This document shows positions 3,001 through 64,000 of a stretch of DNA of 64,000 bases, one piece after another. The notes beneath the pieces were generated by a model. That model ran no database searches, was not told where the DNA came from, and saw nothing but the letters and a program-made list of their open reading frames with translations. Positions within the stretch are counted from its first letter, which is position 1. The number at the start of each line of letters is the position of its first letter. The position numbers were made by a program, and so were the translations under genes. Origin of the DNA: Hydractinia symbiolongicarpus (Eukaryota > Cnidaria > Hydrozoa > Anthoathecata > Hydractiniidae); contig NC_079884.1 of NCBI RefSeq assembly GCF_029227915.1, positions 15,874,001-15,938,000 of the forward strand, given 5' to 3'.

Positions 3001-3300
3001 TAATAAGATTAACCATATAGTCAGTGAGAGAAAGAGAGTAGCGACAGAGAGAGTGTGACAGTTACATAATCACAACTGTCAATAGTCTGAAAATAATAAT
3101 TTTTGATATCTTTTATGCCAACAAATTTTATAAATCCTTTTGTTGATTACTGCTAAGCAGCTATATCTACAACTCTTGATGTTGAAATCTCTTTACTTCA
3201 CCATCCCCTTCCCCGCAAAGTCAATATTCCGCGAGGTCGATCTGTCATTTTCAGTAACTTAACGTTATTCGCCTTTTTTCCTTAAGTGTTATCAATATAA
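1..3300. other. Gene-poor AT-rich stretch
   Basis: No convincing coding exon is seen on either strand. The longest open frame (324-764, plus) begins at a non-ATG codon and is rich in inverted repeats, so it is not supported as a gene. The stretch holds dispersed TAGC microsatellites (about 148-162, 1444-1463, 2262-2272), long A or T runs, and a hairpin at about 490-541 inside a zone rich in the word GCTTAT (about 400-730). Confidence 0.6.
486..543. repeat. Imperfect inverted repeat (hairpin) in a GCTTAT-rich zone
   Basis: The left arm GCTTTCTTGCTTATT and the right arm AATAAGCGAGAAAGC are reverse complements with one mismatch around a 4-nt loop. AACTTTG and CAAAGTT lie further out. Further GCTTAT words occur at about 410-430, 590-610 and 705-725. 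This may be a relic of a small foldback element; no target duplication was found. Confidence 0.4.
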
Positions 3301-3394
3301 TATTTATTACTGATTTCCACAAAATATTAAATCTTCGATATATTCCCATCCACAATAACGATACGTAGCTAGCCAGAAAAGTTTTTCGACAATC

Positions 3395-6590: not shown

Positions 6591-6595
6591 TTAAA

Positions 6596-6910
6596 ATGGC
6601 TGCCGGACAGAGTGTAAATGAAAGTTTATTAAAAAACATCAACGAAAATATCAACATTATCCTGCAAAAATGTGGAATGCGATTATTAAAACAATGGACA
6701 GAGGACGAAAATTTCAATATTTCAACCAGTTCTCTTTACACCAAATCTTCTAAGGAAAAATTTACTGTAAAAGGAACATGCAAAGCAAGCACGAAAAAGA
6801 GAATACAGCATTGCTGTAACCTTGAATATAAACAATGGTGAGGTAGCCAGTGGTGAATGCGACTGTCCTGCTAGAAAATCAAGTGCTGTTACCATGTTAT
6901 GGTACTTCCT
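6596..6910 (+). pseudogene. Fragment of a SWIM-type zinc-finger protein
   Basis: An 81-residue open frame starts with ATG at 6596 (MAAGQSVNESLL). Immediately after it, in another frame, the translation contains GECDCPA, resembling the CxC half of a SWIM zinc finger (C-x-C-xn-C-x-H). The matching CxH half is not visible, and the frame breaks near 6800-6840. SWIM proteins of this type are common in transposon-rich invertebrate genomes. I regard this as a truncated remnant, not a working gene; the assignment rests on a short motif. Confidence 0.3.
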
Positions 6911-12079: not shown

Positions 12080-13650
12080 GATGAGCATAAGGTTTCTTTG
12101 ATCGGACGAATTTAAATACTTTTTTTTCAAATATTTCTAAGCTACTGAAACGTGTATATATTGGGTATTTCGTGTATATTATTCTCATACAAAACTTATA
12201 CAAAAATACAGAAATAGCCAAATAATCTTCCAGTAAATAATAATTTATAAAATAATTTAGCTTTTAAAAAAAATATTGAAAATAAATTTTTGCATTGAGC
12301 GTCTCCAGATTAAGCATTCTATTTCCGATGTGACTATTAAGTTTTCGGGATGGTAAAACTAAGTATCTGTGCTATGTATACAAGACATTCTGAAACACGT
12401 TTAAAAAGTGGCGCAAAATCACTTCTTTGGATAGGTAGCTATGCTCATTTACTGTGAAAACATATATCAGCAGATTTATTTTTATCTATACGTAACAATG
12501 AGGACTGTCATTCCGATTGTGTCACAACAGCTATCGCGATAACTTTCAATAACTTAAAGTTTTGGCATTAAGTCAGAACTTGAAATATTTTTTAAGTGTA
12601 AATAGTATATTGCACAGATAAAGATAAAGTATGACTTGCTTAAAATTCTGAACATTCCAATCTCGTGACAATTATCAGCCACTTTTTTTATCCTGTCTTT
12701 AGCGATTTTCAAACAAACCTTCTCTTAGCAGTACATGATATATATATATAGATAAATTATCCTTTCAGCGGTCCTCTCTGTCATTCTAGCTCTAAAATTA
12801 TTTACGAGAAACGTACTACTTACTGAAATTTAAAATAATATTTGGGAAATTTTCTGTTTTTCAGCTCTTTCTTGAAATGGGCCAGGTAAATAACGTCAAG
12901 AATGTACGGCTGTACTTTCCACAATGTCCGCATTATGGAACAATCTGTTCCGCGATCCGGAACGGTCCGAGATATTGTGAAATTGAGGCATGTTGACGTC
13001 AAGATATTAAATCTAACCATGTAACCATGCTAAGTACGGTGTGAACATTGACAAGTTCGGAGTGCATGTTACTTAAATAGAAACGGCGTTTTTAATTGCT
13101 TGTGGTTGCGATCATATATTAATTTGTTATCTTCCGAATCCCAAATACGGAATAGTGTGATATGTTGTTTTATCCTTATGTCAGGGCGGCGATACTTTTA
13201 TCGCACTGGATGCGTATCTCTACCGTTTTCTCCCGGAACATAAAGCCGATATGTTGTTGTTTTCTCCTTTATCTGTTTTCCGATAGTGGAACTGAAATCA
13301 ACATTGAAGTAAACTGTGAAATTTGGTTTAAATTTAACTCAGCCCAACATTAGTTTTTTTGTCCAATTAGTCGTTAGTTCGTAGAAAATTTCACGTAAAA
13401 TTGCCCGTCGTACATACTTCCTGCATCGTTATTTCATACATTCTTGTTCGACTATTAGCACGAAGTAATGAAATTACTTGGGATTGGAGTTATTACTATG
13501 ATTATAGGTGCAATTGTAATGTGGTCTTTGAATATAAAACCCTGGTTTCTCAGTAAGGAACTTAGTATACTTTTGGCTCACCGACAGATAGACAACGAGT
13601 ATTATAATATACCCTAGCTGGATGACCTGGCGTTAAACTCAAAGTTGAAC
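12080..13650. other. Intergenic, no gene supported
   Basis: AT-rich. Short frames at 12820-13020 (minus) and 13162-13353 (plus) have no recognisable domain, splice context or composition bias. No RNA gene is seen. Confidence 0.45.
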
Positions 13651-17445: not shown

Positions 17446-17909
17446 TACCTTAAGTGGATAAATTTTGGCGAGTATTTAATTTGGCAAATGACCAAAACGG
17501 AATATTTGGCGGGGATTTAATTTGGCGGATGATAAATTTTATAAAATTTGGCGAATACAAAAAAAAGTTTATTTTGACGGGGATATATTTTGGCGAATGA
17601 CACAAAGAAATGAATTTTTATGTCTTGAAATGTTTTAAAAAATAAGAATAAACCTATATATAAACATTTAAAAACAATCCTCTTTATATTTGTATTTATA
17701 TTAAAACTTGTGAATAAAAAAAAAGTTCGTTTTTATGGGAAAAAAACATTTTTCTTTTCTTAATTAAAAAAAACGTATTTTTTTTAAATTTGGCGGGGAT
17801 TTAATTTTGCGAATAGTCAGTTATCAAAATTTTGGCGGGTATTTAATTTGGCGAATTTTGCTGAAATTCGCCAAATTTAATCCTCGCCAAAATTTATCCA
17901 CTTAAGGTA
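17446..17909. mobile_element. MITE-like element with about 40-bp terminal inverted repeats
   Basis: The left end reads TACCTTAAGTGGATAAATTT followed by TGGCGAG(T)ATTTAATTTGGC. The right end is its near-perfect reverse complement, finishing CCACTTAAGGTA. If the flanking TA is counted as a target duplication, the element is CCTTAAG...CTTAAGG with TA on both sides, as for Tc1/mariner-type insertions. The interior contains four more copies of the GGCGGGGATTTAATTTGGCG-like motif and no open frame. It is non-autonomous; the superfamily is inferred only from the TA flanks. Confidence 0.75.
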
Positions 17910-50300: not shown

Positions 50301-52882
50301 TCCATTGAAAGGATAGTATTCCTAACTAATTACGTCAGAAATGGTATATTTCACAGGTAATAATATTTCATAACTGATATGTTGAAATGTTTTCCCTGTC
50401 ATTTTTTTATGTAATGGTTAGATGTGGATTTTTCTGTTATACTGCCATTTAAGAGTGTCATTAAAGCTTGATGGAAAAAGAAAGAAAAAATACATTTAAG
50501 ATAATCTTGATGTACAAAAACGACTCTCCTCAGTGAATGACAGGCTCTATTTTCTGTTATCAGGAATTGTTTTCGATCTCATTTAGGTGCTCTAAATAAT
50601 TTTAACAAATAGTTTCCTCAAAAAATTATTCTTATGTCCAATAGAAGCAGAACACAACAAAGCAGATCATCATTACCAAAAAAGAAATCTTAGTAACAGG
50701 AAAATCTTAGTAACAGGTGTTTGCACAAAACAATGATGCAACACATTGTTTATTGCAATGTACTGTCTTTTTTTATACAACGCAAGGCTGAGTGGCAGTG
50801 AACGTGTATGTTGAACCTTTCAAACAAGAATATTTCTTAAGAAACATTTGGGCCTTTAATGGTCCTGATTAATTTCACGTTTCTTAAATAAAAAAGTAGT
50901 GTATTGATGTTTCATAGTTGTGCATTTGTAATAAAAAGATTTATGCAGCGTCTGCATCTTGTTCAGCATTGATATCTTCATCTTGTTTGACGAGGTAACA
51001 TTCTTTTTTTTATATATATATTTAGGAAGGAACTGCAAAATATTCTACTAATTCTCTTCGCAAATCAAAATCTAAACGTCAGTCATGGATGAAAGAGGTA
51101 CTCTTAGTTTATATGCACCTGTATCCTCTACGTTCATAATAACATTATTAACCAAATGGAATAATTTTTGTGCCATCTAAATGGGTTTAACCCCTATAGA
51201 AATTAGTTTCTCAAAAAACTAGGTCCTCAAACTAAAGACTTTTAAAATGTCTCTCCCCACCCCTCCCGTCTTTCCAAAAAAAAGAATTTGCTTAAGCCAT
51301 TAAAATGATGTTTCCACCCTCTTACCTTGTTGAAATTAACAACAGAATTTTTGATAAGGTCTTGATAATAAAACAATCATCATAACATGCATGGCAACTA
51401 TGAAAATCTTTTATTTCAATGTAGGGGGTAACTCAGGGAACAGTACCATACCTTGGAACGTTTCTAACTGATCTTACCATGATAGATTCTGCTCTTCCAG
51501 ACAATATCAAGGTATGAAGTATTATTGTTATTTATTGTTGTTTTTTAAGGTTTATGCTAAAAATTATTTTGGTCTATTTTTTTGCAAAATATTTGCATTT
51601 TAATTAGATAGTAACATGCTTGGTAGTAATAATGCACATAACATTTAATGTTATGTAAGCATTTGTGTGTGTTTTAGGAAAATTTAATCAATTTTGAAAA
51701 GAGACGTAAGGTAGGTTTATTTTCAAACCTTTTGTAAATTGATATTCTTGCAGAAAAAATGTTGAGCAACAAGCACTTAACTGCCTAGCATGGAATCTGT
51801 GGAGGTCAAAGTATTTTCTAAGAATATTGGATTTTTTTTGTATTTGATAGGAGTTTGAGATAGTTGTACAAATCAAACTACTGCAACAAGCAGCTAAAAA
51901 CTATACATTCACCCCAGTTGAAGATTTTTTTATGTGGTTTAATTTGATAAAAACATACACAGATAAAGAAAGGTAATTTTTCTTTCATCAATTTATGACA
52001 GTAACATTACTAATATAGGGGTTGTTTACCTAATTATTATGGTTGGTTATGAGGGTGATTATTAGTGAAGCACAATCATCAAATATTTTCATTAGTCTAC
52101 AAAGGCTATATTAGAGTATTTAAAGCTTCTATTTACAGAGGTTATTTTTTTTAATGTGCTCACTCTAGCTATGAAAAATCATTGGAGGTGGAACCACCAC
52201 CACCAAAAGACGGTAGCAAACCCACCACTCCTCAACCCCAAAGGAAGTCAGTCAGCATAAAGTAAGTTTGTGAATTTTAATCAAGCCAAAATGTTTTAAA
52301 AAATTTTGAAAAATATACTAATTTAAAAATTACCCAATTTGTTACCTCAATGACCACCATTAATGAGGACCACATGATGATCTTGGTTTAACACTACTTT
52401 TACCGATTTATCTTAGGAGGTATTTGAGTGAATCTGATCTTCTCCACAAGATGGATAATGTTCATAAAAGCCTTTCGTCATTTTCACTCGTTCAACTTAA
52501 GCTGGCAAGACACAATGTATGTAGTTTGTGGCAGTATTTTTTACTGTAAGGTTTAAATGTCGCGAAAGTTGATAGTATGACAGTGAACAACGTTGCTTAC
52601 ATTCGTACTATTTAGGCAGGATAGCAACATGTTTTGCATTCAAATTTCTGGACCCACAGATCTTTATCATCCATGTATAAAAATTTTAACTATGATGTCA
52701 AATGCTCCTAATCAATATTGAACATTAATCTTGTATTGTTGCTCAAATGACAGCAACAAATTGATGCTTCTTTAAATACCTCCAGAGATAGGGAAATGTT
52801 TCTTCTGGCGCAACGTACATCACGCGCACGTGCACGCCACAGTCAACCACAACAAATCCCTGATCATCTAGTACCTATAGGG
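41371..52882 (+). CDS. Ral guanine nucleotide exchange factor (RalGDS/RGL family), 3' part beyond window or lost
   Basis: Activates Ral GTPases by promoting GDP release, usually downstream of Ras. Fifteen phase-consistent exons: 41371-41568 (tentative first), 46999-47294, 47999-48061, 48437-48630, 48729-48877, 49045-49269, 49512-49615, 50031-50115, 51026-51097, 51425-51511, 51678-51710, 51851-51972, 52169-52261, 52417-52516, 52754-52882; 650 codons without a stop. Exons 2-4 form the RasGEF N-terminal (REM) domain ([24 protein letters not shown]). Exons 5-12 form the CDC25-type catalytic domain ([55 protein letters not shown]). Exons 13-15 are a Pro-rich and basic linker. The expected Ras-association domain is not seen; a GTAAGT donor at 52883 leads straight into the virus-derived element. 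The first exon ([13 protein letters not shown]...) is chosen because its donor phase and reading fit. Confidence 0.9.
41693..44400 (-). mobile_element. CR1/L2/Jockey-type LINE, decayed, with a nested insertion
   Basis: Antisense LINE in RalGEF intron 1. From 44380 downwards it encodes the C-terminal endonuclease domain ([19 protein letters not shown]) and a linker. The reverse transcriptase follows ([15 protein letters not shown] at about 43070; GVPQGSVL and [11 protein letters not shown] at about 42640-42740), then the C-terminal region ([22 protein letters not shown]). It ends in an ATT-type tail (about 41693-41712). Frameshifts break the ORF, and a 200-bp insertion (about 42855-43062) splits the reverse transcriptase. 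The catalytic YADD is intact but the copy cannot be active. Confidence 0.85.
42855..43062. repeat. About 200-bp nested insertion with CAACACAAC tandem words
   Basis: It separates two adjoining reverse transcriptase segments of the surrounding LINE. It contains four or five AACACAACAACACAACT-like words at 42900-42980. No coding capacity or clear target duplication is seen; the element type is unknown. Confidence 0.55.
44506..46412 (+). mobile_element. LINE with PHD-like finger, GAT tail, catalytic Asp changed
   Basis: A longer copy of the family at 30943-32072, inserted in RalGEF intron 1. The segment at 44632-44950 ([16 protein letters not shown]) ends at an in-frame TAG. The segment at 44953-45747 holds the reverse transcriptase palm ([36 protein letters not shown]) and the Cys/His cluster. 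The segments at 45747-45935 and 45957-46376 hold the C-terminal region ([24 protein letters not shown]). It ends with AACGGACGTTAAGCC and six to seven GAT repeats. The catalytic YADD is YAND, so the copy is inactive. The 5' end is truncated before the endonuclease. Confidence 0.87.
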
Positions 52883-53112
52883 GTAAGTACTTACCATGCT
52901 GTGCTTAGTCATGTATATCAAGGTAAAGTCCCTATGATGCTATGTTTATCCATGCATATCAAATCAATGCAGCAAATAAGTAAAAACAGTTCTAGCGCAC
53001 ATGAAGGTAAATTCCCCTGCACTGCTGACGTCATCAAAAATCAACACATGCGCAGTAGCATCCAAGATACTGAGCAAACCAAGGAGAAAAAAAAGAGGGT
53101 TGTGGTGATAAC

Positions 53113-53697
53113 ATGAGTTGGTTTAGGAATACACCAGATCATATCAAGACACAGGACATGTGCCACTGGATTATTGAGGAAAGGCCCTACATGTTCGAGT
53201 ATGTCCCGGACCAGTTCAAAAAGCAGGACATGTGCGACAAGGGTGTTGAAGAGGATCCCTACATGCTGGAGTATGTCCCGGACCGGTTCATGACGCAAGA
53301 CATGTGCAACATGACCGTTGAAGAGTATTCCTACCTGTTCAAGTATGTACTGGACCGGTTCAGGATGCAGGACATATGCAACTGGATTGTTAAGGGAGAC
53401 CCCCATTGGATCGAGGATGTGCCAGACTGGTTCAAAACGCAGGACATATGCAACAAAGCTGTTGAAGAGGATTCATGTCGAATCGAATATGTCCCGGATT
53501 GGTTTGTTACCCAGGACATGTGCTTTAGGGCTGTCAAAGATGAGCCTGAACTACTCGATGCCTATTGTCAGAGGAAAGCGGGGAAGACCAGAATTGGGAA
53601 AGAGCTGCTTCCGATGGCCTGGCATCCCGACAGGGCTATGGACTGGTGCTTTTCGGAAGATGAAAAGGCAGATCTTGAAAAGTTGTGGAGCTCCTAG
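53113..53697 (+). CDS. Repeat protein with about 32-residue VPDxF..QDMC repeats
   Basis: An intact 194-residue ORF made of six repeats of the form YVPD-x-F-(K/M)-TQDMC-(N/D)-x-AVEE-(D/E)-P-x-x-(L/I)-EY, followed by a different C-terminus with AWHPDRAMDWCFSEDE. Comparable repeats are known from giant viruses and large virus-like transposons, where they are of unknown function. Predicted soluble, helical, repeat-type (solenoid) fold. It lies at the edge of the element. The ATG at 53113 is chosen because it opens directly into the first repeat. Its intactness contrasts with the decayed capsid genes nearby. Confidence 0.75.
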   Translation: MSWFRNTPDHIKTQDMCHWIIEERPYMFEYVPDQFKKQDMCDKGVEEDPYMLEYVPDRFMTQDMCNMTVEEYSYLFKYVLDRFRMQDICNWIVKGDPHWIEDVPDWFKTQDICNKAVEEDSCRIEYVPDWFVTQDMCFRAVKDEPELLDAYCQRKAGKTRIGKELLPMAWHPDRAMDWCFSEDEKADLEKLWSS

Positions 53698-53698
53698 G

Positions 53699-53730
53699 TT
53701 ATCTCATAGCCCCTCAGGGTTATAAGATAA
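53699..53730. promoter_or_regulatory. Hairpin between repeat-protein stop and next start
   Basis: Arms TTATCTCATAGCCC and GGGTTATAAGATAA pair with one mismatch and one G-T wobble around loop CTCA. It begins 2 nt after the stop at 53695-53697 and ends 1-2 nt before ATG at 53732. The right arm resembles the one at 62472-62482. It may be a terminator, a promoter, or both. Confidence 0.5.
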
Positions 53731-53731
53731 A

Positions 53732-53902
53732 ATGGAACAATGTAAAGACTGTAAAAGGTTACTTGACGAGTATGACAGGTGTAGCTGTGGACAAAGGCTC
53801 ATGATAGGGGCTAAAATGTTGTGCTGGTACTGTTATCAAGAGTATATCACATATAACGGGGGTAGTTGCGTATGTAATCCTCTGACGCTGTTGAAAATTT
53901 AA
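53732..53902 (+). CDS. 56-residue Cys-rich zinc-ribbon-like protein
   Basis: A short intact ORF, ATG at 53732 and TAA at 53900-53902, encoding four closely spaced Cys pairs: CKDC, CSCG, CWYC and CVC. This layout suggests a small zinc-ribbon or treble-clef metal-binding protein, possibly nucleic-acid binding. The start lies directly after the hairpin at 53699-53730. The stop overlaps an AATAAA polyadenylation-like hexamer at 53901-53906. Nothing in the sequence shows its function. It reads in the same direction as the repeat-protein gene, 34 nt downstream. Confidence 0.55.
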   Translation: MEQCKDCKRLLDEYDRCSCGQRLMIGAKMLCWYCYQEYITYNGGSCVCNPLTLLKI

Positions 53903-53993
53903 TAAAAGAGATGCTAAAATTTGAGACTTCAAAAAGAATGGCTGCTAAGTGATGATTAAAAAACCATATATTTTATAGGTCTTGTATATTTTG

Positions 53994-54019
53994 TATATTT
54001 TATAGGCCTATAAAATATA
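53994..54019. terminator. 26-bp perfect palindrome between convergent genes
   Basis: The sequence is perfectly self-complementary and centred on GGCC (54005-54008), with arms TATATTTTATAGG and CCTATAAAATATA. It lies between the plus-strand gene ending at 53902 and the minus-strand gene ending at 54080, so a bidirectional 3'-end or cruciform role is plausible. No loop is present. Confidence 0.45.
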
Positions 54020-54079
54020 TAAAATTTAGGCTTGTAAACAGGTGGTGAATCTAGGTAGTGCTTACATACTGTACAGACG

Positions 54080-54659
54080 CTAGTTTCTGCCTTCTCCCCG
54101 GCCTTTCGCAACTAGCTGGGCACGTTTGCGTTTATTGATGGCGTCCACAAGGCCTTTAAAGCCTTGACGTATCTGTTCCTTCAATAACATGTGACGTTGT
54201 TTCTCCTGCATAATGAGACTAAACTCGTAGTCACTGATAACCCCATTTTCTACTGATTTTGAAATAATATCAACAATAGAGTTTAATTTCGACTCAGCTA
54301 ATAGCCTTATACTTTTATGCTTCTTGGATTTGACACCATGCCTTTTTGAGGCGTTCCGCAGACCAGCTTGCCCAATTCCCATGGCTATTGTGATACCCCC
54401 ATGGCAATACAGAGGGGAGCCCCTAAACCCGTGGCTAATGCCTCAATTCCAAGACCTGAGGTTATAATGCTGACACTCAATAATCCATGGACGCAGAAGC
54501 ATACCCACGTCCCATGCATTTTGAACTTCTATGAAAGTCCGTCCCGTTCTTTGATTTCACTTCGCAGGTACTTTTCAATTTCTCCAATCTTGTCAAGTCT
54601 ATATTTTTGGCTTTCGTGGATAGTATCATCCTCCACAGGCGCACTTGGTAAAATTGGAT
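54080..54659 (-). pseudogene. Polinton small membrane-associated protein, frameshifted
   Basis: The N-terminal part, read from about 54659, is acidic (SAPVEDDTIHES) and helical, then stops near 54530. A hydrophobic glycine-rich stretch (IITSGLGIEALATGLGAPL) follows at about 54400-54480 and stops. A final 100-residue ORF (54382-54080) contains SKLNSIVDIISKSVENGVIS. The order (coiled-coil N-terminus, hydrophobic hairpin, helical C-terminus with a D-x-EF motif) matches a protein often found in invertebrate Polintons. Its function is unknown. At least two lesions separate the parts, so this copy looks dead. Confidence 0.5.
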
Positions 54660-54678
54660 GGAGCTTCGTTACATCCAT

Positions 54679-55123
54679 TTATTCTATGAGCAAATGTATT
54701 GTGATGCCATTAAAGGAAACATTTTTGTCATGATGGCATTCATCTGTCAGCATGAACTCGAGGCGATCCGTAGAACCCTTCAGGGGAAGGTATATCGGAG
54801 TGTCAAAAGTCCAGGTCACCATGTCCTCCCAAGCGTTTAATTCCTTGGTGGGAAGCAAAGCGAGAATTGACTTTTTTCCATCCAGTAGGCAGTCGTCTTC
54901 GTCCAGCTGCGGGCAAACGAGTCTCAATCTGTAGTAGACGTCAGCCTTGTAGACTACATCGTAGTCGCCCTTTGTGTAGTACTTTTTACTGGGGTCGTAG
55001 GGCAGGCCCATAAGCTCTTGCAGTTGTCGATGAATGACCACCGTATACCCGTCACTAACACGGATCCTAGAGAGTCCATTTTTTAGGACAAACAGCTTTA
55101 TCTGCCTCTGCCTTGCCGTTCAT
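54679..55123 (-). pseudogene. Minor capsid (penton)-like protein, frameshifted near its start
   Basis: The main ORF (55041 down to 54679, 120 residues) contains LQELMGLPYD, YRLRLVCPQLDEDD and a C-terminal beta-rich segment ending in ITIHLLIE. Its in-frame upstream extension reaches about 55115. A different frame provides the likely start ATG at 55121-55123 (MNGKAEADKAV). The pattern of hydrophobic beta strands and the final 'acidic loop then ITIHL' ending resemble the single-jelly-roll minor capsid proteins of Polintons. It lies close to the major capsid gene, as expected for virion genes. The assignment is by pattern only. At least one frameshift is present. Confidence 0.45.
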
Positions 55124-55566
55124 GATCTCAATTCAAGTAACCCTCTGATCATGCCCTGTCTTACGGATGACAAGTTCATTCTTGCTGTAAAGGTTCAGCC
55201 ATATAGGTCGAATACTAATAGATTTCAGAGCTATGAAGTGTCCTATCCCAGGTAATCCTCGAAAATTGTGGGTTTTTCAATGTCAGTGATGTAGAGTTGA
55301 TGAATATCTATTCGTACAATCCTAGGGCAAGGTACGCGCCAAACCATGGGAGATACTCGCAAAGGCTCAAGGGGGGTGACCTTTCGGTGCAGGATATTGT
55401 TATCGATAATCAGGGCTCCTCGTTCAAGGTGAAATTTCCAGACATTTTTGTCGACTATGAGTTAGGGGTAGCCAATGGCGGGCTGGTGAAGGAGTGGAAC
55501 AGTCACCCTTTTAGTCCATGGTCTACACAACTTAAACTTTTAATCAACAAAGGCTCCTACAATTAG
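55122..55566 (+). pseudogene. Unrecognised element ORF with frameshift
   Basis: Two adjoining frames, about 55122-55255 and 55265-55566. The second holds an 88-residue ORF from ATG 55300 (MNIYSYNPRARYAPNHGRYS). It contains beta-rich alternation (DIVIDNQGSSFKVKFPDIFV) consistent with a structural protein, but I do not recognise a family. Its likely start shares the CATG at 55121-55124 with the divergent minus-strand gene. Confidence 0.35.
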
Positions 55567-55580
55567 CTCTGGAATTTGGG

Positions 55581-55962
55581 GTGTCTGGCAGTGAGCAGGA
55601 ATGGAAAAACGAAAGCATGTTCAATAGTTGGCAGCTCCATCGTCAAGATTATCCCGGTCCAGGCCCAAGTTACTTCGACGAAGACTCGTGGAGTCGCTGG
55701 ATCATCGAGAAAAGCCAGGGCCTCACCCGCATTGGTATTGAAAGGTTATTACAAAGCGTGCGCTCCTACGCATACCTAATTCTAGAGAGTCAGGCAAATG
55801 CGAGATCTGGAATCATCGGGAATCAAGGCAGTGCAATTGATGCCCAACATCTGTACCTAACAAAGTTTGAGGAACTAGTAATTAGGGACACCAATTATTG
55901 GATTATTTTTCCATTGGTGTTAATCCAGTAGGAGTCATCATCGCCTATATCTGGCTTAGGTA
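55581..55962 (+). pseudogene. Unrecognised element ORF with C-terminal membrane segment
   Basis: A frame from 55581 (no ATG until 55617) encodes a Trp/Asp-rich, helical protein (SWQLHRQDYPGPGPSYFDED, then QSVRSYAYLILESQANARSG). Near 55900 the frame shifts; the alternative frame gives a hydrophobic anchor (VNPVGVIIAYIWL) ending at TAA 55960-55962. It may be a small membrane virion protein. The family is unknown. Confidence 0.35.
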
Positions 55963-55994
55963 AAGTCTACTGTGTTTCATCAAACATATTAGAC

Positions 55995-57258
55995 TTATTT
56001 TCTCTTTCCAACATGGGCTACGACAAAAGCAACAGAGGCTGCGAGTGCTATATACAAGTGTTTGGCTGCGTGTTCGACAATCTTTGCCGCTACTCTTAGC
56101 AAGAACGAGACTATGGTACCAATAATCCAGGTAATGCAGCACCTGCCTTGGCTGCTAGGTATTTTAGGAATCTTTCAAGCCTTTCCAGCTGCTTCTCTAC
56201 AAATCCCTTCCCTGCGGAACTTCCTCCTGCACCTGTCGCGGCACCTCCCCCTGTCACAGCGAGTACAATAGTGGAAATCAGTAGACCAATAGCAGAGACA
56301 ATACTCGCTATAGTCAGCCCCTGCTCCTTGAAGAGGATCTTGAGCTTTTCAAGCAGGGACGTGTCATCCCCAGCGATTTTTATTAGGGTTTCCTTAATAC
56401 CCTTCAACTGATTAACAATTTGAGATGAGAGTAACCCATCTGCCTCCTGCGCGGCCTTTTTCTGATCCTCTAATTTTTCAATTTCCTCCCTGACCTTCGC
56501 GATATCCCCATTCCATATTTCCTGCTGTTCCTCACTAGCTCCGGGTGTAGCCTTTTTTTCTCAAGTCTTTTCACCTTTGTCTCTGCCTTGTCTATCTCGC
56601 CATCATACAAGATCATCTTGCCCTTCAATAGCTTCAAATTGCCATGTATGGTTTGAATCTCCAGGTTGAGCCCCCTTCTTTCGCGTTCGGTGAATACTTC
56701 ACCACCACCAAACGAAGTATCTTTTTGTATAAAGCTCTCAGTTTGATCCAGGGTATCCTCAACGTTTCCTGCAAAAGTATCCATTTCGATATCCTCACCC
56801 TTCTCCTCAACCTCCTTCTCTATATCCGCATATTTTTGCATAAGGTTCTGGGCCTGTGCCTTACTGCCCTTGTTGGGTGTAGTATAGTCGGCAAAACCTA
56901 AGGCTTGCAGACGCGTACTACCTAACAACTTTCGTATCTGGCCAACAGTTTTTAATTTACCGTTAAGATTTGTAATCACTATACCATCGACAGCAAGTTG
57001 ATTCCCCGTCATTTCAAACTCGTTGTAAAATTTCGTGGATGGTATCAGGTTCAAATCCTTACTAAGGCGTTCGTAAAGGTCGTCGACCTTTGATTTTAGT
57101 ATATCCTGCCTATGCCCTGGAAGCCTAGTCCCCGGAACACCCTGTTGTACCTCTGACAAAAGGCCCCGGCGTTGCTGGAGGCCTTGGCGTATCTTCAGGT
57201 CTGTCATCTGGACGGCCCCCTCCTCAATATCGGGTTCAAATACTGGATTCGCCGGCAT
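55995..57258 (-). pseudogene. Long coiled-coil virion-like protein with hydrophobic C-terminus, frameshifted
   Basis: The start is placed at ATG 57256-57258 (MPANPVFEPDIEEGAVQM), which faces the capsid gene start across 37 bp; the earlier in-frame Met at 57282 would overlap that spacer. About 255 residues of charged, heptad-rich sequence follow, including DLYERLSKDLNLIPS and DTLDQTESFIQKD. The ORF ends at 56470 and the protein continues in other frames. The stretch at 56407-56111 holds coiled coil followed by the hydrophobic segment TIASIVSAIGLLISTIVLAV and a Gly/Ala loop. A last hydrophobic part ends at about 55995. Similar large coiled-coil proteins sit next to the capsid gene in invertebrate Polintons; function unknown. 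There are two or more frameshifts. Confidence 0.55.
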
Positions 57259-57295
57259 ATCTTTTATTGTAAAAAAAATCATCTAAAATAAAGAT
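57259..57295. promoter_or_regulatory. Divergent start region with mirrored AATAAA(A)GATATG
   Basis: A 37-bp spacer between divergent starts. Reading outward, the minus gene begins AATAAAAGATATG and the capsid gene begins AATAAAGATATG, so the spacer plus start codons form an inverted repeat. This suggests a compact bidirectional promoter recognised by element-encoded or host machinery. Confidence 0.5.
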
Positions 57296-58573
57296 ATGAG
57301 TAACACATTCGGAAGTACATTGGATCCATACGGTAAAACGAAACAGCTTTTTGGTCTCAAAGGAAGGTGGCCACGTGTCCAGATTACTAATACACCCTCC
57401 ACGCTTAATCAAAATGAGGACTTGTACGTGGATATTCCTAACATGCGACAGGATGAGGTTATTTTTCCAGGGTCTATGAAACTGTTGTTTGACCTGGAAC
57501 TCACAGGAACAAACACGAAGTGCACCATCGTCTCGAATATAGGCAAAAGCCTGGTGCGAGATTTACGTATTACCTTGAATGGCAACAAGGTGCAAAATAT
57601 CAATGATTTCAACACGTTCGCAGTCTACCGGGACTTGTGGCTACCATAATTGACCGCGAAAACAATTTAATCCCTGAAGGCATTACCCCAATGATGGTAC
57701 CATGCGGGCCCTACAGGTCAAGGTCACTGAATATGTCGGGACGGATGAAAAGAAGGCGATTGCTGCGGCCTATGGTAACACTTTCTGTATTCCGCTGGGG
57801 AAGCTCTTCGAGTTGACTAGGGACTTGCCGTTTTATCCGCACAGCCTGTATGATAGATTACAGTTTGTCCTACATTTTGCCTTACATAACGACGTTATCA
57901 AGGATGCAGGTGCGGCAGCCTCGGGGAGCACGGCGGCAAAGCCGGCCGATGCCACATATAAAATCACCAACATCAAGCTAGAGTTTGACAAAATCACTCA
58001 CGAGGGTCTCGCGAGTGCCATGATGTCCCGTTACGCAAGACTAGCACTACCCTACAAAAGGATCCTAAGAAGCAAAGTAGTCACAATGAAAAAGGCTGAT
58101 ACCAGCTACAACCTTCAGATTGACACCCCGGCGAAGATTTTGAAAGGTGTCCTATTACACTTCGTGGACCCATCAAAAGTAAAGGCTTATTCCGGTATCA
58201 ACGAGGTGTTCTACAATCCTTAGATCGAAAAGATTCCATCACAGTCGAGGGGGAGCCTAACGAGCTGTACTCTCATGCCATGCTTGCTAAGGATCATTTG
58301 GAGCAGATCATAAATTTATTCGGTAATCACGATTCCAATGTGACGATTGACCAATTCTTCAATGAACGATACGCCCTGTTTATCGACTTTCGATCAAGCC
58401 CGGACCACACTCTTCAGGGCTCTGGGAGACCCCTACAACGCCTGAGTGACGGCATCACCCTCCATATGACAAAGAAAGCTGACGGATCTGGGGATATTCG
58501 GTGTTACGTATACTTGCTTCAAGACGCTCAGCTTAACGTACTCGACGGCCGTTATCATTCGGTGGAATACTGA
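57296..58573 (+). pseudogene. Major capsid protein (double jelly-roll), frameshifted
   Basis: The hexon-type capsid protein of Polintons/adintoviruses, in three segments. The first, 57296-57649 (117 residues), contains MSNTFGSTLDPYGKTK, the VDIPNMRQDEVIFPGS strand region and ITLNGNKVQNINDF. The second, 57702-58223, contains GKLFELTRDLPFYPHSLYDR, ITNIKLEFDKITHEGLA and the second jelly-roll strands. The third, 58280-58573, ends RYHSVEY. Breaks lie near 57645-57700 and 58220-58280. The intact length would be about 425 codons, as expected for the family. It forms the icosahedral shell in relatives. The start is supported by the AATAAAGAT block just upstream. Confidence 0.8.
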
Positions 58574-58579
58574 AATAAA

Positions 58580-58970
58580 ATGGCTACCCTCGCGATAATG
58601 GCAGGGGAGCGCTAATTAACGCACTCGCGTTCAGCGGTACAAATTTCCTATTCAGTAAACTCGGTGGACACGGCGAAGCGAAGCACAAGAGGCATGACGA
58701 AGCTATGGAAAATCTACAGAACGCCCAGGCTCAATGGGTACGCGATCGACAAGCCAAGATCGACTGGTTTAACAGGCAACGAGAGCTTAAACGGCAGGCC
58801 GGGAGGAGCTTTAAGGAGTTTGACGAGGGTATGTACAAGTACTACATTACTACACGGCCCCGAAGTTGTCGGATTACTACAAACCTAGCAAGAAGCAACA
58901 AAATGGAGAGTTCACTTTCGTTATTGGATCATTGACCCTTCTAGGGTTTGTGGCCTACAGGTATTTGTAA
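58580..58970 (+). pseudogene. Small element protein with N- and C-terminal hydrophobic segments
   Basis: ATG at 58580, 6 nt after the capsid stop, in the context AAATAAAATGG. The N-terminus is hydrophobic. The centre is charged and Gln/Arg-rich (NLQNAQAQWVRDRQAKIDWF), followed by FKEFDEGMYKYY and, in another frame, a final membrane helix (VIGSLTLLGFVAYRYL) ending at 58968-58970. Frames change near 58610 and 58850. It may be a small virion membrane protein; the family is not known to me. Confidence 0.45.
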
Positions 58971-58973
58971 GAA

Positions 58974-59007
58974 TGTTTTTGACATTATAATAAACATGTC
59001 AAAAACA
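58974..59007. promoter_or_regulatory. Perfect 12-bp hairpin containing the integrase start codon
   Basis: The left arm TGTTTTTGACAT (58974-58985) and right arm ATGTCAAAAACA (58996-59007) are exact complements around a 10-nt loop TATAATAAAC. The right arm is itself the first four codons of the integrase. The hairpin begins 4 nt after the stop of the upstream small gene. Confidence 0.55.
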
Positions 59008-59877
59008 CATATCATTACTGAGGAGAAGGCAGAAAATTTTAGCAATATCTACTATACCCCAGAACATCTCTGGACTGGACGAAAAGCCATCAAATTGCTA
59101 GCCTCAGAAGCTGGCTTATCAAAAAAGAAGGTCACTCACTGGCTGTCCAGGCAACTGCTCTGGCTACGACATATCAAAGGCCCGAAACGTATCGATTACC
59201 CGCATTTCAGTATCACGAAACCAAATCAGATGCACCAGTTTGATCTACTTTATATGCCTCATGATAAGCTGTATGGAAATACCCATAAATACCAGTGTGA
59301 TAACGGCTCCGAATTCAAGTCAAGTGTAACGAAACTGTTAGAGGACAAGGGGGTGGAGATTAAACGGGCCACCACCAAGTATCGACATACCTTCACAGCG
59401 TTTGTGGAAAGCTACAACAAAATACTCGCTGAGAGACTCTTAAAACCCCAAGATGCGCAAGAGTTAGTCACCGAGGAGACGTCAAGCACTTGGGTAAAGC
59501 ATCTGTACACTATTGTGAAAAATTTAAACAATACCAAGACTACCATGATCGGTATGAAGCCTGACAAGGCGATCCAACTGGATGATGTACCACTTGCCAA
59601 GGAGCAACAATATCCCGAAGAGAAGTCATTACCCGAGGATGGATTATATTTGTATTTGTTGCAACCTGGAGAGGAGCATGGTGATGCGAGACGACGCGCA
59701 ACTGACGCCTGGTGGAGTAAAAAGACGTACAGGTTGGATAGGATCGTAGCAGGTAGTCGTGTGCTGTACTATTTGAAGGACGGTCCTAATCGTAGCTTTG
59801 TCTCGGAAGAACTCATGCTTATTCCCGAAGATGTCGAAATACCCCCAGAGGGGGTTAAGGCTTGGTATATTGGATAG
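58996..59877 (+). CDS. Retroviral-type integrase (RVE), internally deleted
   Basis: A 293-residue ORF. The N-terminal helical region contains IYYTPEHLWTGRKAIKLLA. The core has MHQFDLLYMP (first catalytic Asp), QCDNGSEFKS (second Asp) and FVESYNK (catalytic Glu). The C-terminus has a chromodomain/SH3-like end (WWSKKTYRLDRIVAGSRVLYY). Only about 19 residues separate the two Asp residues, where the family has roughly 55-60, so about 40 residues of the RNase H fold are missing in frame. The protein should be inactive even though the frame is open. In relatives it inserts the element DNA into host chromosomes. A start 48 nt upstream is possible but lies before the hairpin. Confidence 0.85.
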   Translation: MSKTHIITEEKAENFSNIYYTPEHLWTGRKAIKLLASEAGLSKKKVTHWLSRQLLWLRHIKGPKRIDYPHFSITKPNQMHQFDLLYMPHDKLYGNTHKYQCDNGSEFKSSVTKLLEDKGVEIKRATTKYRHTFTAFVESYNKILAERLLKPQDAQELVTEETSSTWVKHLYTIVKNLNNTKTTMIGMKPDKAIQLDDVPLAKEQQYPEEKSLPEDGLYLYLLQPGEEHGDARRRATDAWWSKKTYRLDRIVAGSRVLYYLKDGPNRSFVSEELMLIPEDVEIPPEGVKAWYIG

Positions 59878-59890
59878 GGTAGGGTTCTAG

Positions 59891-59922
59891 AATTTTTACT
59901 ACTTACAGGAGTAGTAAAAATT
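59891..59922. terminator. Perfect 13-bp hairpin, ACTACT family, copy 1
   Basis: Arms AATTTTTACTACT and AGTAGTAAAAATT pair around the 6-nt loop TACAGG. It lies 13 nt after the integrase stop and 9 nt after the stop of the convergent minus-strand gene. Shares its stem core and the flanking TTAGYGYCTGC with copy 2 at 60752-60783. Confidence 0.7.
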
Positions 59923-59931
59923 AGCGTCTGC

Positions 59932-60714
59932 CTAGTCATCTAGTGCCGGAACACCCAAATCGTACAGGTCATCCCAAGTAAGGTCGATAAGCCTGAAATG
60001 GTTTCTGTAACGCTCCACATGCTCCTCCTCTTCAAACCGATTAAAGGCGTGTATACCGTTGGGGTTGTCTATGACTACAATCTCTTCTGCGTTTGAGTAG
60101 TTGTCCTTGAACCACAATAATGCTAATATTGCGCCTCTGAACACGCGTGCAATAATAGGGAAGATGATGGTACTCGTCCTGTGCGCTGTGCTTGCGATGG
60201 ATTATGATGACGTTGTCTTTACCTAGATCTTGGGCATGTGGTACATGTCTTTCTCGAAGCCTTGCATTTTCCTGGGTCTGTACCTCAAGTTTATCCCCCA
60301 GCACCACGAGTCTCTATCGTCTAGATCGTCCATAAGAATAGCGATGGCAATATCCCTGTCCTCGATGGTCTCCTGTATTTTTTCCACCCCCTTCCCAGCC
60401 AACCATTTTGTCAAAGCTACGGCTCTGGGCTTTCTTGACTTGACAACAATTTCCAATGCGCCTGGTAACGTGACAAAGACATCGTGTGAGTTTTTCCCTC
60501 TTCCAAGAGGTAGGGTGGCACCCCCACCCCTTTTTCCTACAATTTCTTGCCTTGTAGTTTCCTCAGCCAAATATTGAAATTTACGTGCCATATCAGCAAT
60601 GCCTTAGAACCGTCCTAGATCGGCTCTTTTAAAGAGAGGTTGATTTTGTTCATCGAAGAGAGTCTCGATTGCTCCGGCAGGCACTGTGTTGAATAAGGTG
60701 AGCTTTGAAGACAT
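59932..60714 (-). pseudogene. BRO/MSV199-like protein, several frameshifts
   Basis: The start at ATG 60712-60714 opens SSKLTLFNTVPAGAIETLF...PLFKRADLG. The next frame (60591-60223) has GGGATLPLGRGKNSHDVFV and VVKSRKPRAVALTKWLAGKG, the pattern of BRO-N/MSV199 domains of large DNA viruses, followed by DRDIAIAILMDDLDDRD. The next frame (60307-60150) contains LRERHVPHAQDLGKDNVIII and LPYYCTRVQRR. The last (60144-59932) contains NPNGIHAFNRFEEEEH and LYDLGVPALDD. The order resembles the MSV199 plus DUF3627 arrangement of iridoviruses. It is probably DNA-binding. At least three breaks are present, so this copy is inactive. Confidence 0.65.
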
Positions 60715-60751
60715 TTTAATATACAAGGGGCCAGCCAGAAGATTTCACCTG

Positions 60752-60783
60752 TAATTTTACTACTCACAAGAGTAGTAAAATTA
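60752..60783. terminator. Perfect 14-bp hairpin, ACTACT family, copy 2
   Basis: Arms TAATTTTACTACTC and GAGTAGTAAAATTA pair without mismatch around loop ACAA. It ends 8 nt after the stop (60792-60794) of the minus-strand ATPase gene and precedes the next minus-strand start at 60714. Confidence 0.7.
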
Positions 60784-60791
60784 GTGCCTGC

Positions 60792-61600
60792 TTACGACAT
60801 ATCAAACGTCCCTTCGAATAGCTCCCGCGTATCATCTTCAGGTAGCTTTTTTGTATGGACAAATCTTCCATACAAAAAAGTTTAGGTGGTCACTCGAGAA
60901 TTTTCCAAGTCTTAGGGTGCTCCAATCTCACATACAGGCACGCATGTTTGGATTTTTCAACCCAACCCTGATCTCGCCCAGTCGGAAATTAGGTTGGTTT
61001 CCTCGTCTATCATTTTCATGTCCGATCTTTCGTTTGGATACCACAAAAACAGGACTTTTTTCTGTCTCCTCAAATTTTTAGGCAAGGCAGTGTACGACTG
61101 CGTGAGTAGCCACAAACTATGCTTCCTAGTCTGCATGAGACCGCCAATTCAAGCAAAGGCTGACGTTTTTTACCAAGGTCTTCATTAGCAATAAAGTCAT
61201 CCATGATAAACATCCATGATAAAGCGTCTCTTCACCTGCCAGTAACGACGATAATTTTTGTATCCATTCAAACAGCTGATCCTTGGGGTCTATCAGAAAC
61301 ACGTAATCATGTCTTATTCCATCTAATTGTTGGACACAAAATAATGATATTGTAGAAATGTTGTCTATATTCATTTTCAAGCAGGTCCAGAACACGCTGA
61401 GTTTTCCCCCAGCTTGTAGGTCCTGTAAAAATACAACTGTGTGGGTCCTTTACGATGTCTAGCATCATTTTATTGATAGCACCATTTTTTATTATGTATT
61501 TTCGGGATAGTCGACAGACAATCGGTACAGATCCACGCACCGCCGTAGTTATTCACCAGATGTCCCGGCAGGCAGGGCAGAACACGGTCTTTCGAGTCTT
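60792..61600 (-). pseudogene. FtsK/HerA-type packaging ATPase, frameshifted
   Basis: The 5' portion (61540-61307) carries the Walker A motif FTGPTSWGKTQRV at about 61400-61425 and IIILCPTIRWNKT. The next frame (61395-61126) and further frames down to 60792 carry a hydrophobic strand with an acidic end (YVFLIDP), and the C-terminus ends KLPEDDTRELFEGTFDMS. In Polintons and related viruses this ATPase pumps DNA into the capsid. The exact start is unresolved because the frame upstream of 61540 has no clear ATG. Several indels break the ORF. A perfect 13-bp inverted repeat (60846-60858 with 60868-60880) lies within its 3' end. Confidence 0.65.
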
Positions 61601-61626
61601 GTATTCTAGGGGTAGGGAAGAATATG

Positions 61627-61862
61627 TTATTTTTTTCCTTCTAGGAACCGCAAGGCATTGCGGTACCTCTTGACGAGCCGTGCTTTTTCCTGAGAAATGG
61701 GGCAGGGCTCAGGATTAAAGAAGGGTGCCTTGATTGGTGTTTTCAACAGCTCGGCGTACCGAGGCACAATATCATGGGAAATATGGTGTAGAGACGTAGG
61801 TAATTTTCATCCTGTTGGACCTTTCTAATTTCTGCATCTATTTTGATGGGGTCTACATCCAT
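61627..61862 (-). pseudogene. Small element ORF, frameshifted
   Basis: ATG at 61860-61862 abuts the stop of the upstream gene (61863-61865). It encodes about 36 residues (MDVDPIKIDAEIRKVQQDEN) before a stop near 61745. A second frame continues with NPEPCPISQEKARLVKRYR and ends at 61627-61629. Family unknown; one frameshift. Confidence 0.4.
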
Positions 61863-62120
61863 TTATTGTTTGGGGACGATCCACCCCTTGGCCACGGCCA
61901 TCTCGCGACTCGCTCTGCCTGCAGAAAAATAGACCACCATCTTGAGGACGTCGTTAGTATCCATCTTGGTAGAGGGGCGTGAAATGCCCAAGAATTTCTT
62001 ACCTGCTAAGGCACAAGCAAAGGTATAACCTAAATCGATTATGGTCTCATACAACATGTCCAAAATTTCCTTCTCTTTGGGGCTAATGTTACTTTCCATG
62101 TGTGCTTTGCTTGTAGTCAT
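61863..62120 (-). CDS. 85-residue element protein, intact
   Basis: An intact small ORF beginning MTTSKAHMESNISPKEKEI, with a mixed helix centre (LYETIIDLGYTFACALAGKK) and the end ASREMAVAKGWIVPKQ. No family is recognised. Its ATG follows TTAAATAA closely, like other starts in the element, and its stop directly abuts the next gene start, suggesting co-transcription. Confidence 0.55.
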   Translation of the reverse strand: MTTSKAHMESNISPKEKEILDMLYETIIDLGYTFACALAGKKFLGISRPSTKMDTNDVLKMVVYFSAGRASREMAVAKGWIVPKQ

Positions 62121-62154
62121 TTATTTAATGCATTCGGAAAATATCGATTTGAGG

Positions 62155-62451
62155 CTAAGATTTGCCCTGTTTCCCCTGCTGAGGCTCGGGGGCCGGGTTT
62201 TGAGATTTGGGGGCAAATTTGTACCACACCCCAACCCCCACTGCCAATATGGCCAGCGTGCCAATACTGTAAATGTAGACGTTTGACTGTACGGAACTGG
62301 CCTCAGAAGAGGTTTTCACTGCAGGTTCTACTGTACCTTGTTGTTTCATTTCTTCCTTCCTCTTCTTCATCAGTGCCGCCAGCTTGTGACCCTGCGCAAC
62401 TCTTCCCGGATGCTTTAGTGGTTTTGTAATAACTCTCTCTTCTTCACTCAT
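62155..62451 (-). CDS. 98-residue basic single-pass membrane protein, intact
   Basis: A complete ORF. The N-terminus is basic (GRVAQGHKLAALMKKRKEEM), followed by a Ser/Val-rich linker, one transmembrane helix (YIYSIGTLAILAVGVGVWYK) and a Pro/Gln/Lys tail. Similar short basic membrane proteins occur in invertebrate Polintons and may be virion components; the function is unknown. The start lies directly against the hairpin at 62450-62482. Confidence 0.6.
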   Translation of the reverse strand: MSEEERVITKPLKHPGRVAQGHKLAALMKKRKEEMKQQGTVEPAVKTSSEASSVQSNVYIYSIGTLAILAVGVGVWYKFAPKSQNPAPEPQQGKQGKS

Positions 62452-62482
62452 TTATCTTATAGCTCTGAAGGATAAGATAAAT
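62450..62482. promoter_or_regulatory. Hairpin abutting a start codon, TTATCTTAT family
   Basis: Arms ATTTATCTTAT and ATAAGATAAAT pair perfectly around an 11-nt loop. On the minus strand the hairpin runs straight into ATG at 62449-62451. The arm ATAAGATAAA-ATG repeats the arrangement at 53722-53734. Confidence 0.5.
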
Positions 62483-62486
62483 TTTA

Positions 62487-62949
62487 CTGTCCTCAGGGAT
62501 CTTCCTTAGTCTCCGCCTCAGCCTCTTTCTCACATGCCTCGCGGTATGGCCAATGACTAAGATAGGCGCCAAACACCTGCCAATTGTACAATAAACGACG
62601 ATCCCCAAATCCGTCATGCTATCTCTAATTATAGCGTCCTCTTCAATGTCCCTACGATGTCCACGAAATTTCCAACAAGATTTGCGTACAGATTGACTAC
62701 GTGGGTAGTTAAAGCCTTAGCTGTCTTCTCCCCCTTCTCTTGGAGCTCGCGTTGTACGTACTCGGCATGCACCTTTTCAATAGCCTCATCAGGGGCCTTG
62801 TCGATAAAGCCTTCTGTACAATTTTTGGGTAGGAGATGTCCTTTGCCCTTACGCAGGGCTTCTTTTAAAGCTTGGCGCTTATCGGTAGGCTGTTCAACGT
62901 GTTCAAAAGATTCTGCGGAGGTGTCGAATACTTGTGCAAGCTCTGTCAT
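62487..62949 (-). pseudogene. Element protein, probably frameshifted, C-terminal membrane segment
   Basis: An ORF of 106 residues (62949-62629) starts MTELAQVFDTSAESFEH in an AATAAAGATG context. It contains KGHLLPKNCTEGFIDKAPDE and a helical stretch ending VNLYANLVGNFVDIVGTL. Past its stop another frame gives a hydrophobic segment (IVVYCTIGRCLAPILVIGH) and an Arg-rich tail to about 62490. Family unknown. Confidence 0.45.
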
Positions 62950-63042
62950 CTTTATTAATAGTTTTTTTGTATCGAAAAAAACAAAACGCGATCAGGGCAT
63001 AAGGTAGAAGTATAGCGATATACAAACACACTTCCATGTTTA

Positions 63043-64000
63043 TTAAGGCTTAAACCGCAAGCGGGGAGGTACGTATCCACGGGCTAGAGTCATAATCTGG
63101 TCCTGTTGCAGGAGCCTTTTGTCATCCCCTCTATTAAGCGCTAACTTGTTCACCTCTTGTGTAAAGACCTTATGGTTCTTGTTCTGAATTAAAACCTGAC
63201 TTTTGTATATATCAACACCTTCCTTCAGGCATTGTCTATAATCGTCGAAAGTGATAGACTTTTTCGTAACACATCTTTTCACGCCCTTTGCTTTCCTGTC
63301 ACCACCCTTTTTCGTAAGACTCTCATAGGCATATAGTTTTGCTCTCAACGTTATGAACTCCGCCATAATTTCCCTGCTAGTTCGTCCTTCATCAGGCCAA
63401 CGACTTTTTTGTTTTCCCCAATAGGGAGGGGCCTTTTGTCTTTCGCACTGTAGGCGCTTGTATCGAAACGTTTCTTAACGTCTTGTGCAATGTCGCGATA
63501 AAAGTCCTCTGTCCGAATGTGTTAAACGAAGCTGTCTGTGTCCATGTAACAGAGCTGCAGCTTGATACCATATTTGGGATGCATATAGTCATAGTGGAAC
63601 TCGTACATGACTAACTTTGACATGTCCAGTATGGCCTGCCCTATGTATACAGGCTTGTTCATTTTGACCTCGGTTTCACTCATCTCTACACCTAGGAGGT
63701 TTTTACTGAACCTGAGTCCACCCTTAAAATTCGGCTTCATCACAAGCTTCATATATACATCCTCGTTGGTGACAAGTTTGAAATTACGATGGTTCCGGAT
63801 ATTTTCCATCGTCTTACCAAACACGGCCAAATTCATGAGCTTATAAAAATCCTTCTCGAAATCATTTTTGGCAGCCGTTCTCAGCCTCGTGTTGTGATCG
63901 ATGTATCCCCTAAGAAATGGCTTCTGGTTAAACTGGATGACCCTATGTACTTTCTTCAGATCAAGTCCATGCCTTATAGCCTCGTGAAGGGCTCTGATAT
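63043..64000 (-). pseudogene. Protein-primed family B DNA polymerase, C-terminal part, frameshifted
   Basis: The gene continues beyond the window. The visible frames run from about 63836 down to 63522 (NLAVFGKTMENIRNHRNFKL, NKPVYIGQAILDMSK, then motif C YMDTDS at about 63530-63545). They continue in other frames across 63521-63367, and the C-terminal 107 residues (63366-63043) contain KGVKRCVTKKSITFDDY. The palm motif KxY-like and DTDS residues are those of Polinton/adenovirus-type polymerases that replicate linear DNA from a terminal protein. Breaks lie near 63521 and 63370, the latter an indel in a GGGAAATT stretch. Inactive as it stands. Confidence 0.8.

Follow-up and report, generated by a model that had tools for sequence, protein, structure and literature searches.

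Recurrent hairpins at the gene ends of a Polinton-type element in Hydractinia symbiolongicarpus, candidate RNA 3'-end signals

Messenger 3' ends in Mimivirus follow a hairpin rule, by which hairpins at the ends of the transcripts are cut by an RNase III-like protein and the ends are polyadenylated. Virophages depend on a co-infecting giant virus. In the available parts of the published accounts, hairpin-forming palindromes that are not conserved in sequence terminate the transcripts of Mimivirus (PMC4402537), palindromes between open reading frames are tied to the upstream stop codon in the Marseilleviridae (Noumeavirus), with one 3' end mapped within the hairpin (PMC5413956), and in the virophage Sputnik, a small virus, 16 gene ends carry hairpins as signals for polyadenylation (PMC6723459). 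The accessible portion of a review also names the Iridoviridae and the pithoviruses under the hairpin rule and describes virophages as using the late promoter of the giant virus together with this rule (PMC11814242). Among the literature matches listed, as far as their text was available, there was no report of gene-end hairpins in animal Polintons or adintoviruses, and no account was found of how animal Polintons end their transcripts.

The window analysed here, a stretch of 64,000 nucleotides from the genome of Hydractinia symbiolongicarpus, contains a decayed Polinton-type element of about 14.6 kb that runs from 52784 to approximately 67,374 and has many diverged copies in the same genome (Table 1). 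The element has the terminal inverted repeats of a Polinton/Maverick (82% identity over 317 alignment columns, measured against positions 3058-3374 of stretch L053 on the opposite strand), a protein-primed polymerase B recognized through homologues with PF03175 (the piece in the window itself has no Pfam match) and a retroviral-type integrase recognized through a homologue, P0001, that matches rve (PF00665). The internally deleted integrase copy of the window gave no match of its own to the rve-type Pfam model. Polintons are flanked by a 6-bp target-site duplication, and the flanks of the element (acctcc and cctctt) are in partial agreement only. Reading frames are broken in many of its genes. 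The MCP-like candidate has unnamed homologues and no solved relative, and its predicted model (pLDDT 43) was too poor to use; the open reading frames on the polymerase side contain Rho_N and Endonuclease_7 domains only. Within the subset of the element's open reading frames that was scanned, there was no match to capping, RNA polymerase, poly(A) polymerase or RNase III genes. A DUF4116-like cargo protein with six 72-nt repeats (53123-53546) lies beside the left end of the element. Elsewhere, the window holds a RasGEF_N exon at 47,017, outside the element, and a 32-bp imperfect inverted repeat at 17827-17895, which is probably a small transposable element.

Table 1. Coordinates in the window of the terminal repeat, genes and hairpins of the element
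Feature	Position	Strand	Remarks
Left terminal inverted repeat	52784..53057	.	Right repeat at ~67,058-67,374, beyond the window end
Hairpin J1	53699..53730	+	14-bp stem, 2 mismatches, 1 nt after DUF4116 repeat gene stop 53695-53697; P 0.010
Hairpin J2	53988..54025	.	Between convergent genes; passes in 3/4 mapped copies
Hairpin J5	55963..55996	.	15-bp stem, 2 mismatches, between two convergent inferred stops; P 0.002
Hairpin J8	58974..59007	+	12 bp, 3 nt past stop 58968-58970; integrase start codon within the 3' arm
Integrase gene, decayed	58996..59877	+	~48 residues absent before CDNG, present in relatives
Hairpin 1 (J9)	59891..59922	.	Perfect stem of 13 bp with loop tacagg; integrase on one side, BRO-like gene 1 on the other
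BRO-like gene 1, frame-broken	59932..60715	-	C-terminus ..LYDLGVPALDD*; Bro-N E 4.3e-4, under the curated cut-off; copies
Hairpin 2 (J10)	60752..60783	-	14-bp perfect stem, loop acaa, after the BRO-like gene 2 remnant
BRO-like gene 2, putative C-terminal remnant	60792..60845	-	C-terminus ..LFEGTFDMS*; from the ends in L034/L041/L044
Hairpin E	60846..60880	-	14 bp perfect, 9 nt after ATPase stop 60890-60892; second sequence family
ATPase-like gene, frame-broken, start approximate	60890..61862	-	PHROG terminase large subunit, E 1.9e-5 for 60960-61148; C-terminus in copies
Hairpin J13	62450..62482	-	11 bp; preceded by a small membrane-protein-like gene (inferred stop 62493), followed by the next start
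Protein-primed type DNA polymerase B, C-terminal part	63043..64000	-	Some homologues with PF03175

The initial annotation of this DNA had drawn attention to hairpins 1 and 2 as two near-identical perfect hairpins close to gene ends, and this placement holds: on the minus strand hairpin 1 begins 9 nt past the stop codon at 59932-59934 and hairpin 2 begins 8 nt past that at 60792-60794. Hairpin 1 is also 13 nt past the plus-strand integrase stop (59875-59877) and therefore sits between convergent genes. The common block TTAGYGYCTGC is present at both hairpins, and the described difference in stem length is indeed paired on both arms (T4/A4 versus T5/A5). The loops differ as written, but less than had been claimed, since their gene-sense sequences are CCTGTA and CTTGTG. 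Of the two upstream genes that had been named, the BRO-like gene before hairpin 1 stands, but the gene before hairpin 2 is not the ATPase; it appears to be a truncated second BRO-like gene, whose end at 60792-60845 we infer to be the owner of hairpin 2. In L034 and L041 the end of this gene follows a Bro-N match and is itself followed by the same hairpin as hairpin 2; in L044 the end ..FDIDMS* is accompanied by a hairpin of the hairpin 2 type. The C-terminus of the ATPase in copies is ..LYVRLEHPRTWKILE (..TWKILE) or close to it, which places the ATPase stop of the window at 60890-60892.

The units of hairpins 1 and 2 are alike over about 45 nt from the stop codon onward, and the coding and downstream sequence that flanks them shows no likeness above shuffle level. 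A recent local duplication that included coding sequence, which had been put forward as a counter-explanation, was rejected because the flank alignment scores are no higher than those of shuffles. The insertion of a MITE was rejected because the homology is one-sided from the stop codon and no target duplication is visible by eye. A Rho-independent terminator, defined in the available part of PMC4402537 as a G-C-rich stem followed by a run of U, was also discarded: the stems are AT-rich and no T run follows hairpins 1 and 2. Comparison of 53,000-64,000 with Rfam families (histone 3' stem-loop etc.) gave a single match, with an E value of 0.77, away from the described hairpins.

The two hairpins do not form the special pair they had been taken for; they represent one family among several, and both stand behind BRO-like genes. 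The window has seven perfect stems of at least 11 bp (loop 3-12), six of them within 53,900-64,000, compared with a mean of 0.25 in 20 simulated first-order Markov sequences of the window's length. When mismatches are allowed, 53,100-64,000 contains 10 hairpins with a score of at least 8, and the midpoint falls in a gene gap for 7/10. With mechanical borders the gaps occupy 7.7% of this region (p 1.6e-6), and with inferred borders, three of which were set after the hairpins had been seen, 4.7% (p 5e-8). Hairpin E was classed as coding in this count and becomes a gap hairpin once the ATPase stop is placed. The hairpins at J1, J2, J5, J8, J9, J10 and J13 have P values of 0.001-0.010 against shuffles and 0.005-0.0125 against coding segments, so that a hairpin at P 0.010 or less is present at seven of the eight stop-side junctions that offer 25 nt or more. 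No significant hairpin was found at the eighth, J12 (34 nt of room), in five short gaps (6-17 nt) or in the divergent gap J6. Of J7, J11, J12, J14 and J15, all without a significant hairpin, most are too short to hold one. As at the 3' ends governed by the hairpin rule, a palindrome thus stands just after the stop codons of many genes, with exceptions.

The stops at J2, J5 and J13 were placed from the reading frames of decayed genes, partly with the hairpins already in view. The C-termini obtained in this way at J5 and J2 (..YIWLR* and ..EWLLSDD*) have counterparts in L052 (..YIWLK* and ..EWLLSED*), which put the J2 stop at 53957-53959, a few nucleotides from the border used in the junction test. 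No relation to the hairpin unit was found for the gene end at 54080. In RNA folding, the values for hairpins 1, 2 and E were reached by none of 200 shuffles and that for J8 by one; the value for J2 was reached by five and that for J13 by 68, the latter being no better than shuffles.

Copies of the element were gathered with a DNA search using 58700-60100, which returned at least 86 matching pieces (40 of 1002 first-look candidates scored). In a selection by integrase similarity, in which the hairpin played no part, 35 stretches beyond the integrase end (with L063 duplicating L064) and 25 at the integrase start were compared. The hairpin 1 unit was recognized by sequence homology, with pairing ignored, in 20/35, and a hairpin with a score of at least 8 lies at the mapped place in 18/35; L074 and L088 have the homology unit without such a hairpin. 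The J8 stretch was recognized by homology in 24/25, with a hairpin above the same score limit in 16/25. The proposal of an element-specific gene-end signal, with a hairpin at the homologous gene ends of related copies, is supported by this recurrence. The remaining 15 of the 35 stretches have other arrangements behind the integrase, some of them without a hairpin; in L068 and L073 a different hairpin directly follows the integrase stop.

Pairing is kept through change at both junctions, in 88-89% of the ungapped pair cells. At J9 209/235 such cells are paired (19 distinct copies and the window), versus 29-55% for slid partners, and at J8 223/252, versus 32-55%. The J9 paired count was reached by 11/500 shuffles. 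Its six double-change cells, reached by 6/500 shuffles and compared with 2-5 for slid partners, are changes from T-A to A-T (twice) and to C-G (twice) at 59897, from C-G to A-T at 59899 and from T-A to C-G at 59903. Two of the four measures at J9, pairs with a double change (98/500 shuffles) and extra pair types (89/500), are not outstanding. J8 has three double-change cells (2/500 shuffles; 0-2 for slid partners). The controls at J8 and J9 leave the relatedness among copies in, and since one J8 arm is coding (the integrase start), protein constraint helps to keep that arm. In place of ACTACT/AGTAGT, copies have the arms CACTAC/GTAGTG, AATACT/AGTATT or AACTACT/AGTAGTT; structure is kept while sequence varies, as at 3' ends under the hairpin rule.

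A second set of copies was chosen by the hairpin itself. The ACTACT hairpin pattern occurs at 19 places in the 481-Mb genome and the reversed control pattern at none. Two of these places are the window's own, two (C4:25384027 and C13:18356193) are unlike and were left out, and 15 lie in fourteen 9.9-kb stretches, the longer matches of which to the window are mostly of 66-83% identity. Because the fourteen stretches were selected by hairpin 1 or 2, those two junctions are uninformative there, and J9 (6/6) was excluded from the totals as a selection criterion. When a pass is defined as a score of at least 8 and P of 0.05 or less, 14/27 stop-side junctions pass (J1 1/1, J2 3/4, J5 0/2, J8 7/11, J12 1/3 and J13 2/6), compared with 0/7 for the divergent J6, 0/6 for J7 and 5/135 for thirteen coding controls. 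The counterpart of J1 is a 12-bp perfect stem in L043, the sole copy mapped there. Hairpins near the place of J2 are also present in L047 and L041, the J13 hairpin is also present in L042, and J5 has a weaker counterpart in L042 (score 7) and none in L052. Six copies have extra hairpins near window position 55315, and several have others at places that extrapolate to ~61,800-62,400; the window has neither. In L039-L052 these two places hold further families, TTCATCCTTTCT.. and ATTTCTATTTGT.., which are absent from the window. The two unlike places, L031 (C4:25384027) and C13:18356193, are TTTTACTACTGTTxAACAGTAGTAAAA palindromes, and L031 has no match to the integrase, ATPase or BRO pieces of the element.

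When three C-terminal signatures were looked for in the element and in 49 fetched stretches, 25 rows were obtained, of which 16 are behind ..LYDxGVP.., three behind ..FDxDMS* or similar and six behind RLLELAE* (stretches L039-L052 were chosen by the hairpin, L054-L088 were not). Behind ..LYDxGVP.., 14/16 hairpins are of the ACTACT type or its variants. Behind RLLELAE*, the ACTACT type is found in L039, L046, L050 and L085 and a GTATGG type in L077 and L084; hairpin E of the window belongs to the latter type. Since two families alternate behind RLLELAE* and three gene ends are served, the hairpins resemble mobile modules whose position at the stop codon is preserved. In 12/12 copies the gap from the ATPase stop to the start of the following gene has no hairpin with a score of at least 7, and hairpin E has no counterpart there. 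Loops of inverted appearance are seen among L048, L050, L063, L068 and L073 (cttgta/tacaag): the loop of L048 is inverted relative to most copies, and L068 has cttgataa where L073 has ttatcaag. These loops suggest flipping at the DNA level, and arm conversion may therefore account for some of the perfect pairing.

Within 60 nt after the stops of the integrase and BRO-like genes 1 and 2 there is no AATAAA or ATTAAA; one or other motif is present after the stops of the MCP-like gene, the genes ending at 58970 and 62155 and the PolB gene. The element has 13 AATAAA..ATG sites versus 1.7 in shuffles, and the rest of the window has 7.5 per 10.3 kb. AATAAA stands 0-5 nt before start codons at, for example, 57268 (-), 57287 (+), 58574, 58989, 62125 and 62956 within 53,900-64,000. 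A role of AATAAA as a poly(A) signal was set aside for a start-linked reading because two of the sites flank a divergent promoter; the motif may be a start-proximal promoter element.

Viral relatives were sought in IMG/VR. The integrase and capsid-like queries found no relatives there, and the polymerase query found one Polinton-like viral contig, L019, which is 57% alike in the polymerase. In this contig 2/8 stop-side junctions pass at P<0.05, with no clear pattern. Near its end L019 has ACTTAATT hairpins arranged in an array, together with tandem repeats rich in GC (6203-6616 and 12626-13146). The ACTACT hairpin pattern was found in two stretches of viral contigs, which on reading look like coincidences, and in 16 of prokaryotic contigs, which were counted for hairpins only.

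We consider it rather probable that the hairpins are RNA 3'-end signals of the element's own genes, at which the messages end. Transcription just past the stop codon would allow an AT-rich stem of 11-15 bp to fold, and the folded stem would halt, or be cut by, the transcription or processing machinery, and the messenger would end at that point; where genes converge, a single palindrome could serve both strands. The hairpins could be read by the RNase III and poly(A) polymerase of a helper virus, as for Mimivirus and Sputnik, or by Drosha or another RNase III of the host. This interpretation draws on the stop-side position, the use between convergent genes, the absence from the divergent gap, the kept pairing and the lack of AATAAA or ATTAAA after three stops. 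Against it stand the junctions that have no hairpin, the AATAAA or ATTAAA motifs after some other stops, the 2/8 in L019, the failure of J13 in four of six and of J5 in both mapped copies, the two J9 measures that are not outstanding and the poor RNA fold of J13. In a doubtful extension of this interpretation, a large DNA virus acting as helper would supply the machinery that transcribes these animal Polintons or ends their messages, which would amount to a virophage-like life in a cnidarian.

The main rival places the palindromes at the level of DNA, as sites of recombination or template switching at which gene cassettes are duplicated and exchanged, with arm-to-arm correction maintaining their perfection. 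Conversion of one arm by the other can indeed retain pairing, and the same unit behind two BRO-like gene ends, the swapping of hairpin families behind one gene end (RLLELAE*) and the inverted-looking loops (L048 versus most copies, L068 versus L073) are all consistent with such a module. It leaves the proximity to stop codons, the convergent placement and the absence from the divergent gap unexplained, and we regard it as fairly unlikely. The hairpins at J8 and J13 include or touch the next start codon, as would be expected if they regulated translation or transcription of the following gene; this is improbable, however, given that no start is near J2, J5 and J9, each of which is flanked by convergent genes, and that the divergent start-start gap passes in 0/7 copies.

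A host RNase III of the Drosha/Pac1 kind might instead degrade or silence transcripts of the element rather than mature their 3' ends. In the available part of PMC8421224, the fission yeast Drosha homologue cuts a stem-loop and so brings about termination without polyadenylation. An element would nevertheless be expected to lose such a site, yet pairing persists across the copies to the extent given above, and this explanation too seems very unlikely. Chance formation of palindromes in AT-rich DNA may account for the J14 hairpin and one coding hairpin of score 8, which look like background, and some hairpins do occur in the rest of the window. As an explanation of the whole set it is scarcely credible in view of the simulated expectation, the clustering in gaps and the recurrence in divergent copies.

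If true, a conserved modular gene-end signal would provide direct, testable marks for Polinton transcription units and would aid the annotation of decayed copies. It would also link animal Polintons to the way in which giant viruses and virophages transcribe their genes, and would allow the existence of a helper virus in animals to be tested. The likeness to Mimivirus, the Marseilleviridae and Sputnik lies in the palindromes at gene ends. Unlike in Mimivirus, the host of the hairpins is an animal Polinton-type element, several of the hairpins form near-identical families and no capping, poly(A) or RNase III gene of its own was found among the open reading frames scanned. The Marseilleviridae differ from the element in being large viruses with virion-borne transcript maturation proteins, and Sputnik in depending on Mimivirus, whereas no helper is known for the element. 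With its terminal inverted repeats, polymerase B, integrase and ATPase-like gene, the element is itself like a Polinton/Maverick. Taken together, the comparison suggests that a family of animal Polintons may end its messages in a virus-like way.
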